Below the pieces are notes generated by a model, which worked only from the letters and a program-made list of their open reading frames with translations, did not search any database and was not told the DNA's origin. A stretch of 64,000 bases of DNA, taken from assembly GCA_016278485.1 (NCBI GenBank), contig JADQBT010000034.1:1-64000 (forward strand), given 5' to 3'. Below, piece by piece: positions 3,858 through 60,195 of this stretch (within the stretch, counting starts at the first letter, position 1; every line of letters starts with the position of its first letter). A program made the position numbers and the translations under genes. Origin of the DNA: Halanaerobiales bacterium (lineage in GTDB: Bacteria; Bacillota; Halanaerobiia; Halanaerobiales; Halanaerobiaceae).

Positions 3858-5828
3858 ATGAAAGCCAAGCAAAAATTATCGGGGATGATGGGTAAAGTAA
3901 ATATTAGACAAAGTATAAATACAAAAATTATTTTATTGATCTTTATCATCTTAGCCTTAACAATGCTGGGCATGGGTTGGCAAATAAACAATACTGTCTC
4001 AAAAGAAATAACTGAGCTTGCCAGGGAACGCAACTTAGGTATTGCAGAAGGTTTAGAAGGGGAAGTGGAAGCGCTTCTGCTGGAAGTTGAAAATGTTGTA
4101 AACCTTGTCTCACATCAGGAAGCAATAATTGAAGGCGGGGAACAAGATTCAGCAGCCAATTTTTTTGCAATTTTAAAAGAAGATTATCAAGTGCTCGATG
4201 ATATCTACTTTTTAACTTCACCCGACAGTAGTGACTGGTATCAGTCTGCTGTTAATAAGGGGGATTTAGTATGGAGCAATGTACGTAGAGAGAGCGGTAC
4301 AGACAAATTATTAATAACTGCCGCTAAACCAGTATTTAATGAAAATAATAATTTAGTTGGGGTCATTGGAGCAGACCTGGCATTAGCTACCATTAATAAT
4401 ATTGTTGAGCAGATTGAAATAGGGGAAAAAGGGTATGCTTTTATTGTTAATGAGCAAGGTGAAATTATTGCCCATAAAGACAACCATTATGTAGAGGATA
4501 GATATGACCTTTCTCAGGAATTTAATCTTGAAACAGTTTTAGGTAATGAAAATGGCCATCTAGAATATGAATTTAATGGTGAAGTAAGATTGGCATCGTA
4601 TACATATTTACCAAGGATAGAAGGGGCAGTAATGGCACAAATTCCCGTAGAGGAAGCATATCAGGCAACGGCAAATGTAAGGACACAGATTTTAGTTACA
4701 TCATTAATTATTATGCTTATAACCAGCTTGACAATTTTATTTGTTATTAGAAGATATTTAATTAAACCAATTTTAATGTTAACAGAGAAGATGGAAAAAG
4801 TAGCTGAAGGTGATTTAACCTTTGAAATGAAGATGGAAAGAAAAGATGAAATTGGTATTCTTATTGCCAATTTTAATGATATGGTCAATCAACTGCAGGA
4901 TCTTGTAGAAAATATTAAAGATACTTCAGATGATGTAATTGATACAGCTAATAACTTGGAGGCTATTTCAGAAGAAACAGGTGCTACTTCACAACAGGTG
5001 GCAAGTTCTATTCAAGAAGTAGCTGTTGGTGCTGAAGATCAAGCTAAAAGTGTAGAAAATGTAACTGCAAAAGTGCAGAGTTTATCAAGTGGTTTAGAGA
5101 GACTTAATAGTATAAATAAAAGAATAGAAAAAATTTCTGACCAGACAACCAGGGCATCCAGTACAGGTCGGAAAGATATGAAAGAAGTAAAAGATCAGAT
5201 GAATAGAATCAACGCATCAATTACAGAAGTTGCTAAAGATATTTCACAACTTAAAAAACTTTCTGATGAGATTGATGCTATTATCGATATTATTAATAAT
5301 ATTGCAGGGCAGACTAATCTTCTGGCATTAAATGCTGCTATTGAGGCAGCCCGGGCTGGAGAAGCTGGAAGAGGTTTTAGCGTTGTAGCTGATGAAATTC
5401 GAGAACTGGCTGAAGAATCAGCAGATTCTGCAGATAAAATTAAAAGTTTAATTGTCCAGATTAAAGAAAAGACTAATGAAGCTGGAGAACAGATGGAGAT
5501 AGGTACCAGAGAAGTTCAAACCGGTCAGAATGTGGTAGATTCAGCAGATAAATCTTTTGATGAAATAAATGAAAAAGTAAAAGAAATTGATGGGGTAATT
5601 GATGATTCTGTTGAAGTTATAAAAAAGTCAAATGTATTTAGTGATGAAATTGTATCAAACATTGAAAATATAGCAGCTATTTCTGAAGAAACGGCAGCCG
5701 GTGCTGAAGAGGTTGCAGCAGCAGGCCAGGAACAGAGTGCTTCTGTAGAAGAAGTTGCTGCAAGAGCAGATAATCTTTCAAATAGAGCGTTTCGGTTAGA
5801 GAAGTTAATAGAAAAATTTGAGATTTAA
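3858..5828 (+). CDS. Methyl-accepting chemotaxis protein with Cache-type sensor
   Basis: This is a 656-residue membrane chemoreceptor. A transmembrane helix lies near residues 23-45, followed by a periplasmic dCache-like sensor (about 48-270) containing the [19 protein letters not shown] segment typical of such domains. A second helix lies at about 275-297, then HAMP (about 298-350). A long signalling coiled coil ends the protein, with the conserved hairpin tip around [16 protein letters not shown]. Cache sensors in this family often bind amino acids or organic acids. The amino acid transporter next door makes that attractive but unproven. GGGGG precedes the ATG. No CheR/CheB tether is obvious at the C terminus. 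Confidence 0.92.
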
Positions 5829-54208: not shown

Positions 54209-54235
54209 ATGATTAATAAAAATTGGGGTGAGATA

Positions 54236-55135
54236 ATGCATGGAGATGAAAGATATCAGGCCGGTAAAAGGGTTAGTATTATTAGCTTAGTAATTAACTT
54301 ATTTTTATCAGTTATAAAAATTACAGTAGGTTTTCTTTATAACAGTAAAGCTTTAATAGCAGATGGTTTTCATTCAGTATCAGATATGGCTTCAACCTTT
54401 GTGGTGATGTTAAGTATGAAATATTCTAAGGTGCCTCCAGATGAGAATCATCCCTATGGTCATGGAAAGGCCGAAGCTGTTGGAACAATAATTTTGTCGG
54501 TTACCCTAATTATTACGGGCTTTATTATCGCTAAAGATTCAATAAGTAGTATTTTTTCTGGTGCCATTGCTATGCCTGGGAATATAACCTTAATTGCTGC
54601 ATTAATATCTATTGGGGCAAAAGAAGCTCTTTATCAATATACTGTCAAGATTGGAGAAAAAATTAATAGTAAAGGTTTAATTGCAGATGCTCATCATCAC
54701 CGCTCAGATGCTTTTTCTTCAGTAGCAGCTTTAATTGGTATTGGTGGGGCTAGGCTAGGATATAAATTTTTCGATCCACTGGCTGGCCTTGTAGTTGCAA
54801 TATTGATTTTAAAGGTAGGGATAGAAATTTTAATTGATGCTTCTCATGAGCTAATGGATGGTATGCCTAATCAAGAAAAAATAGATAATATTTCACAACA
54901 TGCAAGTGAAATTAAAGGAGTTTTGACAGTAAGCGATGTGAAGGTGAGAAGTTATGGCCCAAGGACCGTTGTTGATTTAACTTTAGTGGTTAAGGATACA
55001 CTTTCTGTAATAGAAGGTCATGCTATTGCAAGCAAAGTTAAAGAAAAAATAATAGAAAAGCATGAAAATGTGGAGGAAGTGATGGTTCATGTTGATCCAG
55101 AAAAAATATACCTTCAGAACAAAGATAATCATTAA
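54236..55135 (+). CDS. Cation diffusion facilitator (CDF) metal exporter
   Basis: This 299-residue inner-membrane proton/metal antiporter has six helices. The metal site motifs are ALIADGFHSVSD (helix 2) and GLIADAHHHRSDAFSS (helix 5), with His/Asp ligands. A cytoplasmic domain from about 205 ends in a His-containing VMVHVDPEKIY segment. It exports zinc, iron or manganese, or cobalt in relatives. The DnaA-box-rich spacer follows, then corA, so this stretch of the window is rich in metal transport genes. Confidence 0.93.
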   Translation: MHGDERYQAGKRVSIISLVINLFLSVIKITVGFLYNSKALIADGFHSVSDMASTFVVMLSMKYSKVPPDENHPYGHGKAEAVGTIILSVTLIITGFIIAKDSISSIFSGAIAMPGNITLIAALISIGAKEALYQYTVKIGEKINSKGLIADAHHHRSDAFSSVAALIGIGGARLGYKFFDPLAGLVVAILILKVGIEILIDASHELMDGMPNQEKIDNISQHASEIKGVLTVSDVKVRSYGPRTVVDLTLVVKDTLSVIEGHAIASKVKEKIIEKHENVEEVMVHVDPEKIYLQNKDNH

Positions 55136-55145
55136 ATAATATAAG

Positions 55146-55378
55146 TTATCCACAATCTACTAACAATACGACTACCTTATCCACAGCTTTTACACAAAAA
55201 ATTCACAACAATTGTGGATTTTTCTTTGCTTATCAACAGGTTATTAACAAACTGTTGATTAATGCAAATGATTATTATTAATAATTAGACAAAAATATTA
55301 AGATTATGACAATTTGGTTAGGTGTTGAAGCTATTTATGTCAGATAACTGTTTTTTATGACAGAGAGGGATATCCACA
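55146..55378. other. DnaA-box cluster in CDF-corA spacer
   Basis: Perfect TTATCCACA boxes lie at 55146-55154 and 55177-55185. Single-mismatch boxes lie at 55230-55238 (TTATCAACA) and 55370-55378 (ATATCCACA). Weaker ones include 55213-55221 on the minus strand and 55253-55261. An inverted repeat ATCAACAG/CTGTTGAT and an AT-rich stretch (55261-55310) lie between. The 291-base spacer 55136-55426 holds no gene. The last box overlaps the likely -35 of corA, whose TATAAT is at 55391-55396. No dnaA or dnaN lies in the window, so an origin-like or DnaA-titrating site is inferred. Confidence 0.6.
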
Positions 55379-55426
55379 GTTTTCTGGAATTATAATTGTA
55401 GTAATTAATCGAAAAGAGGTGCGCAA

Positions 55427-56482
55427 ATGAGAAGATTTTCTCGTGTAAAATCAAGTGAGATTGGACGAGCTCCTGGTCTTTTAGTTGAAATGAATAATAA
55501 ACTGGCAGATTCAGAGATTGAAATAATCGAATATAATGGACAAGAGTATAATAAAACTAAAGTTGACAAGCTTTCTCAATACAATTTTTCGGATGATGAT
55601 CAAACAGTTACCTGGATTAATATCATTGGACTAAACGATATTGATCTAATTAAAAAAACAGGAGAGATATTTGGCTTACATTCTCTAACACTTGAAGATA
55701 TCATAAATACTAGACAACGACCTAAAAAAGAGGATTTTGACAATTATATGTTTATAGTCTTAGATATGCTCAATTATGGTGGAGATTTTATAGATTCTGA
55801 GCAGGTGAGTATAATTCTTGCTAAAAATTGGGTGATTTCATTTCAAGAACATTCTGGTGACAATTTTGATCAGATCAGGGAAAGGATTGCTATCGGAAAC
55901 GGACAGATCAGAAATAGAAAAGCAGATTATCTTGTTTATGCTCTTCTTGACTCAATTGTTGATAATTATTTTAGTGTATTAGAGAAAATTGAAGAACAAA
56001 TTGAAAAAATTGATGAAAAAGTTCTCGATGATCCTGGTCCGAAAGCTTTAGAAGTTATTCAAACTATGAAACAGGAAATAATATTTTTAAAAAAAACAAT
56101 TTGGCCACTTAGTCCTTTATTTAATAGCCTTCTGAGAATAGAATCTTCATTAATTAGGAACTCTACTGATATCTATTTGCGGGATATTTATGATCATGTG
56201 GGTCAAATTATTGATGAAATAGAGGTGGCTAGGGACATGTTGGGTTCAATGCTAGATATTTATTTAGTAACTAAAAGTAATAGAATGAATGAAGTAATGA
56301 AGGTATTAACTATCATTTCAACTATATTTATTCCTTTAACTTTTATTGTAGGAGTTTATGGTATGAACTTTAGCAATATGCCTGAACTAAGCTCAAAATG
56401 GGGTTATCCAACTGTCTGGATAGTAATGGTAGTAATAGCTGTTGTTCAGTTAATATATTTCAAGTGGAAGAATTGGTTATAA
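55427..56482 (+). CDS. corA: CorA-family magnesium/cobalt channel
   Basis: This 351-residue pentameric divalent-cation channel has a large cytoplasmic N-terminal domain to about 285. Two C-terminal helices are separated by the invariant YGMNF pore-mouth motif (VGVYGMNFSNMPE). The tail is positively charged (KWKNWL). AAAGAGGTG precedes the ATG. Its stop codon overlaps the start of the DUF445 gene by one base, so the two are translationally coupled. Confidence 0.94.
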   Translation: MRRFSRVKSSEIGRAPGLLVEMNNKLADSEIEIIEYNGQEYNKTKVDKLSQYNFSDDDQTVTWINIIGLNDIDLIKKTGEIFGLHSLTLEDIINTRQRPKKEDFDNYMFIVLDMLNYGGDFIDSEQVSIILAKNWVISFQEHSGDNFDQIRERIAIGNGQIRNRKADYLVYALLDSIVDNYFSVLEKIEEQIEKIDEKVLDDPGPKALEVIQTMKQEIIFLKKTIWPLSPLFNSLLRIESSLIRNSTDIYLRDIYDHVGQIIDEIEVARDMLGSMLDIYLVTKSNRMNEVMKVLTIISTIFIPLTFIVGVYGMNFSNMPELSSKWGYPTVWIVMVVIAVVQLIYFKWKNWL

Positions 56483-59400
56483 TGAGTCAAATAGTTAGTA
56501 TATTATCAAAAATTTTGGCTGGTGGAGTGACTGGTTATATTACTAATAATTTAGCAGTCAAAATGATTTTCAAAAAATACGGACCGTTTGGTGGAGTAGT
56601 TTTAAAGACTAAAGATGAGTTCATTAGTAGTATTGCAGAGCTTGTAGAGTCAGATTTAATTAATCATGAAACATTAGAAGATGAGTTTGCTGATCCTAAA
56701 TTCAAAAAACAAATAGTGAATCTGGTAGATGATTTTTTAAATAAATATCTATTAGATAATTTAGGTGAAAAGAGATTGGGTCAGATACCTGGTATAGAAA
56801 AAAGCAAAGCATTGCTTGTTGATTATTTGTTGGAAAATGGAGAAGAGACTTTTTCGGCTCTATTTACGCCAGTCTGGGAAGAAGTGGCAGTAGATGAATT
56901 AATATTGGAGAAACAATGCCAACATATTTTAACTCAATTATATAATCAATTGCTGATGTTGATAAGTGATGACTTTATTGAAGATAATATGTACAATATC
57001 TATCAAGAAATTGCAGATTATAAATTGGCAGAGTTGCTAGATGATCAAATCATTGAACAAGTTGAGAATGAACTTTTTGATTTCTTCAATTTAACAATTA
57101 ATGATCTAGCTGAATTTAAGATTTCAAATTATTTATCCTTAGAAGAATTTATAGACAAAATTAAAGAGCTTTTACTTTCAGATAAATTTAACTACCAAAA
57201 TCTATTAAATGAAATATGGGTTGAAATTAAAACTTCTTTAGATGATTCACCATATAAATTATCATATCTTTTGAATGGGCAAGAACAAAAATTACTAAGT
57301 GATGATTTAGTCGAATGGTTACCACAATTAGTTGATGAATCATATATTTACTTAAATGATATACAGTCTGAAATAGAGGTTGAATTAGATGAGATTATAT
57401 TAGAAGAATTACAGTCTGGGTCTGGCCTGCAGAGAATGGTAAAAGGGAAAATAGAAGAAATTTATCAGTCAAAAAAAGAGGCGGGATGGACAGTTACAGA
57501 GGTCTTGTTGGATCAACTTTACCAAAAGTATCCTCCAAATAGTTTTGCTAATAAAAGGGTAAATGTTCTTTTAAAGCAAATATTAGAAACTCCAATTGGC
57601 GAGGTGGTAAAGGAGTTTCCTGAGAAGTTAAATTGTAAGACTGATATTTTAATAGATCATTTTGCTAATAATGAATTTGATAATTTTTCTGAAAAAATTG
57701 ATGCTTTAGTAATTTACATATTGAAAATTTTAGTCCAAGATAAAGAATCGATTTCAAAGTTAATCAGAATATTAAAAGATAAAAAGATAAAGAGTTATCT
57801 AACTGAAGAACAATTTGCGGAACTTGCTCCTGTGTTAAGGGATTTAATAGTACGAACTCTTACTGAAAAAAAATCAGAAATTGTAAATCATCTTAACGGG
57901 CAAATTTATAGGAAGCTTTCTGGAGTTAAGTTGATAGATCTATTTGAGCAGATTGAGCATTTAGATATCAATCAGGAACTTAATTCAATAATTATTAATA
58001 AGATTAAGAATTATAATTTTTCAAGTAGTAATCAACCACTTTATCAATATCTAATTGAGTTTACTGCAGATAAAGATTTCCCTGCTAAACTAACTGATTT
58101 TTTATTAGATCTCTTTTATGAAAATTTACCTGAAATGTTGGAAGGGAAAATTGCTAATACAGTAGCTGCTAATTTAAATAAATTAAGTGAACAAGAGGTC
58201 CAAGCAACTGTGGAAGAGTTTATGGGGAAAGAATTACAACCAATCACCTATTTTGGTGCTTTGTTGGGTATGCTAGCAGGATTATTATTTGCTATATTTG
58301 GAGGAGTAGACCTTAACTATCTAGGATCATTTTTGCTTTATGGTATGGTTGGTTGGTTAACAAATGTGATAGCAATTTGGATGGTCTTTCAACCTTATGA
58401 AAAAAAGAATTTGTTGGGGGTTGATATACCTTTGACACCAGGATTGGTTGCTAAAAATAAAGCCAATTTTGCAAAATCTCTGGCCAAATTTATTGACAAG
58501 AAATTATTGACGGCAGGTTCAATAGCAGAAAACTTTAAAAATAATCGAGCAAAGTTAGAAAAAAATATTTTAGCAGATATCAATAAGAATAATTTCAAAT
58601 TGCTGGATAGAATATTACAAAACAATACTAATTTTGCTGCTGATAGAACAGCTGATATATTGCTAGAATTTCCTGAAAAAAACGCTGAACAATTAGTTGC
58701 AATATTAAACAAACAGAGTAGTCATATTATGCAAGATAAATTACCAGAGTTGATAGATGATCTTACTATAAAAGGTAAACAAGAAGTCTTTTTGTCTTTT
58801 CTACCTGATGAAATAGAGATTGATTTAAATGGGTTAATACAAAAAAATACTAATAATATAAAAAAGTTTTTAAATAAAATAATTAAATTAATTAGCAAAG
58901 ATTTAGAAGTGAATAATCTGGAAATTACCCAAAAATATTTTAATGGTTTTGTACAAGTATATTCTGAAAAAAAATTAAATAGTTTTTTAAATGAAGAAGA
59001 TCTAATTAATTTAATTAGAAAAGAATTTATTGGTAATTTTAAGATAAATCCTGCTAATCTAATAAAAGATAATAGTGATAGTCTAGCCGAATATAGTTTT
59101 GAGGCTGGTTGGAAAGTGTTAATTGAAAATAAAGAGATTATTAAAAAAAATGCAAGGCGTCAAATTTTTGCTTTAATTGAAAAAGAAAAAGAAAATCAGA
59201 AAACGGGTATTTTAAGTGGGATTTTATTTGATGGAGCAATAGCGTTGGCTGGTGTAGATCAAATGGTTGATAGAATAATTGATCGCTTTTTTAAGGAAAA
59301 GTTGCCTATTTTATTAAACAGACATCAGAGTAAATTGCAAGATATCATTATAAAACAAATTAAAGAAGGACTATTAAGAAAAGAAGAACTTGGTTTTATT

Positions 59401-60195
59401 AATCAGAGCTGGCAGCCTGGAGAAAATTTATTAGATATAATTGAAGAACCAATCCTGAATTATTATCAAACATTAAAGTTCGTGAATTTATTTGATCTAT
59501 TCTTTCAAGATGAGAGTGGAATGAATAATTTTTCTAGGCAAACTTTAGCTCCTTTAGTCGAAAATATTGCGAGACAAATAAATAATAATGCAAATCTGAT
59601 CAGTGAGCAGTTTGTCGTTTATAGCAAGGAGAAAATTGCTAGTAACAATTTTAAACCTGGGGTTAATATAAGTGACCGTCAAGTTGCTGATCTTGTTAAA
59701 AAGATCATTAAAAAAGGCTTATCTGAAGAGGTGCTTAGCCAGTTTAAAGATAATTTTGTGCGATTAATAAGGGGAAAGAGAGAGCAGTTTAATGTTAACA
59801 TATTTTCAGAGCAAATATTAATGGGATCATTAGAAAATATTTTTAACTCCACTCGTAAAGATAAATTAAAGCAAAAATGGGTAGCAAATCTTGACCAGGA
59901 ATATGAGCGTTTGTTTACTAATATGTTTAGAGAATTACCACCTGAACTTCACTTATACGTTAGTGAATTGTTACTGAGAAGTGGTTTTGATAGCTTAGAA
60001 AATAATATTGTAAGTATTTTTAACAGTGTTAAAATCAAAGAGATTGCTGTTGCTGAAGTAGAGGCAATGCAGGCAGAGGAGATTGAGATTTTATTTAATT
60101 CTTTTGCAGGAAAATATTTTAAGAGATTAAAGCAATATGGTTGGTTTGGTGGAGGTTTTGGCCTGTTGGCTGAGCTATTACGCTCCTACTTTTAG
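56482..60195 (+). CDS. Very large DUF445-family membrane protein with internal duplication
   Basis: This is a 1237-residue protein, about three times the usual DUF445 length. Two family-type modules are visible. One starts at residue about 8 (GGVTGYITNNLAVKMIFKKYGPFGG...). The second starts at about 590 (LLGMLAGLLFAIFGG, then GWLTNVIAIWMVFQPYEKK). The parts between are long, charged, predicted helical repeats. A third membrane-active helix (YGWFGGGFGLLAELL) ends it. DUF445 (YheB/YtxB-like) has no firm function. ATG 56482 overlaps the corA stop. The alternative in-frame start lies inside corA in another frame and is not used. Confidence 0.8.
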   Translation: MSQIVSILSKILAGGVTGYITNNLAVKMIFKKYGPFGGVVLKTKDEFISSIAELVESDLINHETLEDEFADPKFKKQIVNLVDDFLNKYLLDNLGEKRLGQIPGIEKSKALLVDYLLENGEETFSALFTPVWEEVAVDELILEKQCQHILTQLYNQLLMLISDDFIEDNMYNIYQEIADYKLAELLDDQIIEQVENELFDFFNLTINDLAEFKISNYLSLEEFIDKIKELLLSDKFNYQNLLNEIWVEIKTSLDDSPYKLSYLLNGQEQKLLSDDLVEWLPQLVDESYIYLNDIQSEIEVELDEIILEELQSGSGLQRMVKGKIEEIYQSKKEAGWTVTEVLLDQLYQKYPPNSFANKRVNVLLKQILETPIGEVVKEFPEKLNCKTDILIDHFANNEFDNFSEKIDALVIYILKILVQDKESISKLIRILKDKKIKSYLTEEQFAELAPVLRDLIVRTLTEKKSEIVNHLNGQIYRKLSGVKLIDLFEQIEHLDINQELNSIIINKIKNYNFSSSNQPLYQYLIEFTADKDFPAKLTDFLLDLFYENLPEMLEGKIANTVAANLNKLSEQEVQATVEEFMGKELQPITYFGALLGMLAGLLFAIFGGVDLNYLGSFLLYGMVGWLTNVIAIWMVFQPYEKKNLLGVDIPLTPGLVAKNKANFAKSLAKFIDKKLLTAGSIAENFKNNRAKLEKNILADINKNNFKLLDRILQNNTNFAADRTADILLEFPEKNAEQLVAILNKQSSHIMQDKLPELIDDLTIKGKQEVFLSFLPDEIEIDLNGLIQKNTNNIKKFLNKIIKLISKDLEVNNLEITQKYFNGFVQVYSEKKLNSFLNEEDLINLIRKEFIGNFKINPANLIKDNSDSLAEYSFEAGWKVLIENKEIIKKNARRQIFALIEKEKENQKTGILSGILFDGAIALAGVDQMVDRIIDRFFKEKLPILLNRHQSKLQDIIIKQIKEGLLRKEELGFINQSWQPGENLLDIIEEPILNYYQTLKFVNLFDLFFQDESGMNNFSRQTLAPLVENIARQINNNANLISEQFVVYSKEKIASNNFKPGVNISDRQVADLVKKIIKKGLSEEVLSQFKDNFVRLIRGKREQFNVNIFSEQILMGSLENIFNSTRKDKLKQKWVANLDQEYERLFTNMFRELPPELHLYVSELLLRSGFDSLENNIVSIFNSVKIKEIAVAEVEAMQAEEIEILFNSFAGKYFKRLKQYGWFGGGFGLLAELLRSYF

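Follow-up and report, generated by a model that had tools for sequence, protein, structure and literature searches.

An array of DnaA boxes outside the replication origin, conserved upstream of DUF445 genes in a family of Halanaerobiales

Introduction

DnaA is the protein that starts chromosome copying. In a 64-kb stretch of DNA from a member of the Halanaerobiales, referred to here as the window, a dense group of DnaA boxes occupies the spacer between the gene for a CDF cation exporter (54209-55135, plus strand; PF01545, E 1.4e-48) and corA (55427-56482, plus strand; PF01544, E 7.9e-67). A sequence-only reading of this stretch took the group for a non-origin regulatory cluster or a displaced part of the origin, and thought that DnaA might control corA and the DUF445 gene behind it as well. 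Which of these the locus is, and whether its boxes owe anything to selection, are the questions addressed below. In Bacillus subtilis, according to two accounts (PMC5295017, PMC13220808), joint removal of six DnaA-box clusters outside oriC advances initiation; this bacterium lacks Hda, SeqA, IHF, datA and DARS (PMC13220808). A literature search turned up no paper linking Halanaerobium or Halanaerobiales with DnaA-box clusters.

Results

Content of the array

The array covers 55146-55286 on the plus strand (profile R1 match 55145-55286; alignment A3). It opens with an exact box, TTATCCACA, at 55146-55154 (offset 0) and holds a second exact copy at 55177-55185 (offset 31), both on the plus strand and both invariant in 14/14 genomes. 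Between them, at 55157-55165 (plus strand, offset 11), is a box position that reads TTAyTmACA in relatives and is degenerate in the window (CTACTAACA). A weak box with two mismatches, TTTTACACA, follows at 55188-55196 (plus strand, offset 42), and then an inverted box, also with two mismatches (TGTGGATTT; 55213-55221, minus strand, offset 67), in which TGTGGA is invariant in A3. The one-mismatch box TTATCAACA (55230-55238, plus strand, offset 84) precedes TTATTAACA (55241-55249, plus strand, offset 95), which has two mismatches here and is an exact TTATCCACA in 10 relatives. The last box, TGTTGATTA (55253-55261, minus strand, offset 107; two mismatches), closes the inverted repeat of box-like halves that had been described, which we find at 55232-55245/55246-55259. 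Next comes a conserved A/T-rich tail (AAAATGATTATTATT-like; 55262-55290, plus strand; mean column identity 0.81 in 13 relatives), and the AT-only stretch noticed earlier is present as a run at about 55271-55287.

When exact boxes are scored 3 and one-mismatch boxes 1 within 240 nt, the array reaches 8, against a maximum of 5 in 300 first-order Markov simulations of the 64-kb window; the cluster of two exact, two one-mismatch and weaker boxes is thus a real one. The exact 9-mer is not enriched genome-wide (32 copies, 38 for the reversed control). What is exceptional is its density: among the 32 copies, neighbours less than 200 bases apart occur only at oriC and in the array, whose pair is, apart from oriC, the sole exact one within 200 bases.

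Conservation and spacing

An initial DNA search with the locus showed that the spacer itself is kept in relatives, and the comparison was made over 14 genomes of the window's family. Profile R1 finds one ortholog in every one of them (E 1e-22 to 1e-35); outside the family it gives weak matches only, mostly at oriC. In 12 genomes of one genus, column identity is 0.86 in the array and falls to 0.45 in the upstream and 0.33 in the downstream spacer, flank values that partly include gene ends. Within the array the means over 13 genomes are 0.91 for the boxes, 0.68 for the other columns and 0.99 for a AAAACAGGTGTTTT stretch. The window's own copy has the lowest R1 score of the 14 and 62-72% identity to the others; it has lost AAAACAGGTGTTTT and some box letters and has retained the layout. 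A same-strand pair of the form TTATCCACA-N(8-38)-TTATCCACA occurs at exactly two loci in each of the 14 genomes, the array and a second locus that is the dnaA-linked oriC in every case, and the reversed control of this pattern has zero matches in the same genomes. Exact inverted box pairs are likewise confined to oriC and the array.

Order and spacing are fixed as well. Across the 14 genomes, forward boxes with at most two mismatches appear only at offsets 0, 11, 31, 41-42, 52, 84-85 and 95-96, except in G002, where a deletion shifts the last two to 80 and 91; inverted boxes stand at 66-67 and 107-108 (103 in G002). The seven same-strand positions are therefore separated by about one helical turn or multiples of it, with two further positions inverted. 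At a period of 10.5 bp the forward offsets gather on a single face of the helix (R 0.90), a suggestive but modest signal, noticed post hoc: with the period left free, 129 of 20,000 random spacings did equally well.

Outside the boxes, conservation is highest in AAAACAGGTGTTTT, a stretch that is no DnaA box itself and that lies between the second and third boxes in 13 of the 14 arrays (AAAACATGTGTTTT in G002). The window's own genome and genomes of families f5 and f7 carry this unit, as box-AAACAnnTGTTT-box, at oriC, and the strict form of the pattern has one copy in each of 17 genomes. The window's genome thus has the motif at oriC and lacks it at the array; the sister genus g2 shows the reverse. 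Even with one mismatch allowed, the motif does not occur at the oriCs of the main genus, and that of G002 has one copy with a single mismatch. One could picture the array as a family-specific DnaA-control element with a 30-bp module (DnaA box - AAACAnnTGTTT - DnaA box), read by DnaA plus a putative second protein, the module behaving as if it had moved between oriC and the control site while staying single. We regard this scheme as unlikely.

That the best-conserved non-box part is not a DnaA box might also mean that the locus is kept for some other reason, as the sites of another protein or as a structured leader RNA, its box-like words being incidental. To this we assign very little probability. 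The exact 9-mers are invariant at two sites in 14 genomes and close pairs of them are shared only with oriC, there is no Rfam match of note, and the predicted fold shows no compensatory change in 20 pairs and carries an unfavourable covariation term. A structured RNA or riboswitch in the corA leader, considered separately, was rejected (no notable Rfam match, no covariation). As far as sequence comparison can tell, the evidence favours an array selected for DnaA binding as such.

Position relative to the origin

The true oriC lies elsewhere in the genome: contig C13 carries dnaA, immediately preceded by six exact boxes, and a further exact box in the dnaA-dnaN spacer. In that spacer (L001 2680-2760), CTACTACTAGTACTACTAGT is followed by a TATATATA run, a TAG/TAC-type repeat, and an exact box; it looks like a DnaA-trio unwinding region, and oriC would then probably be bipartite as in Bacillus. 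GC skew is positive across the entire window. In two complete relatives the 19 kb around the array show no change of sign at the array itself; in one of them there is a local dip some kilobases off. Both records begin and end at oriC. The array stands at 218.6 kb in the 2.31-Mb genome and at 2460.3 kb in the 2.61-Mb genome, which puts 218 and 153 kb, or about 9.5% and 5.8% of the chromosome, between it and oriC. The two copies are on opposite arms and are oriented alike with respect to the replication fork. Because the skew does not flip and the distances are of this size, the array is not a displaced part of the origin, and this half of the earlier proposal falls. The other half, a non-origin cluster of DnaA boxes, is borne out by the placement of dnaA and its six boxes on contig C13 and by the conservation and genome-wide rarity of the array.

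If the array were a secondary or relic origin, perhaps copied long ago from a sub-array of oriC and using the A/T-rich tail for unwinding, several resemblances would be explained: the oriCs of the order share with it the box-AAACAnnTGTTT-box unit and a spacing of 31 bp between boxes, the best R1 matches outside the family fall at oriC, and the tail adjoins the boxes. Yet the array has no dnaA linkage in a genome with a normal dnaA-linked oriC, the skew is uniform in the window and keeps its sign through the array in the two complete genomes, and no run like the TAG/TAC-type repeat of the dnaA-dnaN spacer stands beside it. An origin of this kind therefore seems highly improbable.

Neighbouring genes

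The array persists while its neighbours change on both flanks. Among the 14 genomes, the gene upstream encodes the CDF exporter in G000, G001 and G002 and a PAS-GGDEF-HD protein in the others. Downstream lies either corA followed by the DUF445 gene or, in G002, G003, G004 and G006, the DUF445 gene directly. The latter, the constant downstream gene (56482-60195 in the window, plus strand; PF04286, E 6e-39), encodes there a protein in which three stretches are matched and which, at about 1,240 residues, far exceeds the 203-231 residues of the DUF445 frames in some other families of the order. Around the DUF445 matches of other families no box cluster was seen, in stretches that do not all reach upstream of the gene.

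The array is retained in four genomes where corA is missing from this place, and the next start codon stands at a varying distance from it; it is therefore not mainly a corA operator, and the strict form of that idea, an operator specific to corA, is ruled out by those four genomes. The suggestion that DnaA controls corA is weakened accordingly. A one-mismatch box that was said to overlap the corA promoter (ATATCCACA; 55370-55378, plus strand) does exist, but it lies outside the conserved array, in a stretch missing from relatives, and has no counterpart in them.

The DUF445 part of that suggestion fares better: local control of DUF445 remains the main rival to a role in holding DnaA, because DUF445 is the constant partner. 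Array-bound DnaA would here repress or activate the DUF445 operon (with corA where present), so that ion transport, or some function of the envelope, would be tied to the replication cycle. In 14/14 genomes either corA-DUF445 or DUF445 alone follows the array immediately and with unchanged orientation; so constant a placement is also what local regulation would predict, and it counts against titration. Moreover, DnaA is known to act as a transcription factor in B. subtilis, where promoter regions are among the regions that it binds (PMC4447404). Against this, a promoter operator could be much smaller and far less rigid than the array is, and four of the genomes have no corA beside it. The next ribosome-binding site starts anywhere from +135 (G004) to +270 (window) from the first box, and in G004 the tail runs straight into it, so that no promoter would fit between the two. 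A promoter search beside the array yielded no candidate standing out above chance. On balance an operator for the DUF445 operon appears possible, if rather doubtful.

DnaA boxes elsewhere in the order

Other families of the order have a non-oriC box pair, mostly with 20-bp spacing, within about 2 kb of lexA (L159 of G019, 4634-4915; L163 of G025, 4814-5060; L164 of G017, 4412-4615; L226 of G015, 579-628; L227 of G014, 109-137). These pairs adjoin a LysM (YneA-like) gene where genes were read, and in two complete genomes they lie near mid-chromosome, opposite oriC. In the window's family such boxes are missing from most lexA loci, and the locus of G001 has one exact box. Exact boxes recur every 11 bp (TTATCCACAGG repeated), in about six tandem copies, in a draft genome of family f6 (G021:C42:2940-3003).

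Discussion

The array is a further case of a known class, the DnaA-box cluster outside oriC. By analogy with the clusters of Bacillus, we think it probable that this non-coding, oriC-proximal site titrates or regulates DnaA. It would likely hold or alter DnaA and so set the timing of initiation. We infer that DnaA binds the strong boxes at offsets 0, 31 and, in relatives, 96, from which it would presumably go on to fill, cooperatively, the weaker boxes that share their face of the helix. Being fairly close to oriC, the array would be copied soon after initiation, and the number of sinks would double early; the pool of free (or ATP-bound) DnaA would then fall and the next initiation would be delayed. 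A further point against titration is that about nine boxes at one site make a small sink beside oriC.

Of the known systems, the B. subtilis clusters (DBCs; Okumura et al. 2012, via PMC5295017 and PMC13220808) offer a close parallel. These accounts describe several boxes outside oriC, in oriC-proximal positions, proposed to limit free DnaA; the array likewise gathers its boxes outside oriC and, in the two complete relatives, is oriC-proximal at the distances given above. The differences are that B. subtilis has six clusters and the family one, with a fixed nine-position architecture conserved family-wide, and that the array, unlike the DBCs, contains a conserved non-DnaA motif shared with oriC.

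In Escherichia coli, datA is likewise a non-coding group of DnaA boxes apart from oriC, and both its layout and its location are conserved (PMC4585315). Its boxes, however, are fewer and much more widely spaced (at 1178, 1245, 1407 and 1419 in locus L253, against an array of 117 bp), a layout that the array does not reproduce, and datA acts with IHF, whereas B. subtilis has neither IHF nor datA (PMC13220808). DARS1 and DARS2 of E. coli resemble the array as small non-coding clusters with an inverted box pair. DARS1 reads TTATCCACT-5 nt-TGTGGATAA (offset 14); the inverted pair of the array has a 3-nt gap (offset 12) and terminates a series of same-strand boxes, so that a core of two inverted boxes with a 5-nt gap is absent from it. 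Such a core does occur elsewhere in our material: a conserved non-oriC cluster in G020 (L160, 6135-6187) and G026 (L162, 7693-7745) contains GTTATCCACTTTTCCTGTGGATAAC, with one gap base different in G026, which is nearly identical to E. coli DARS1 GTTATCCACTATTCCTGTGGATAAC, the 5-nt gap and the mismatched box being common to both. On the contig of G020 the other box pair, probably oriC, is about 55 kb from this cluster. Judged by its sequence, this cluster is possibly a DARS-like site in a distant phylum.

With the Halanaerobiales oriC, finally, the array type shares exact boxes at 22- and 31-bp spacing as well as the box-AAACAnnTGTTT-box unit of the f5, f7 and window genomes. Unlike oriC, it has no dnaA linkage, no switch of GC skew and no second half at a dnaA-dnaN spacer.

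How replication is timed in bacteria like B. subtilis is unsettled, and the six partly redundant clusters of that species make a test less clear-cut. With exactly one non-origin DnaA array, itself rigidly conserved, the family described here would be a simple system in which to study the question. The same array exposes, in AAAACAGGTGTTTT, a candidate site for a putative partner of DnaA, shared with some oriCs.
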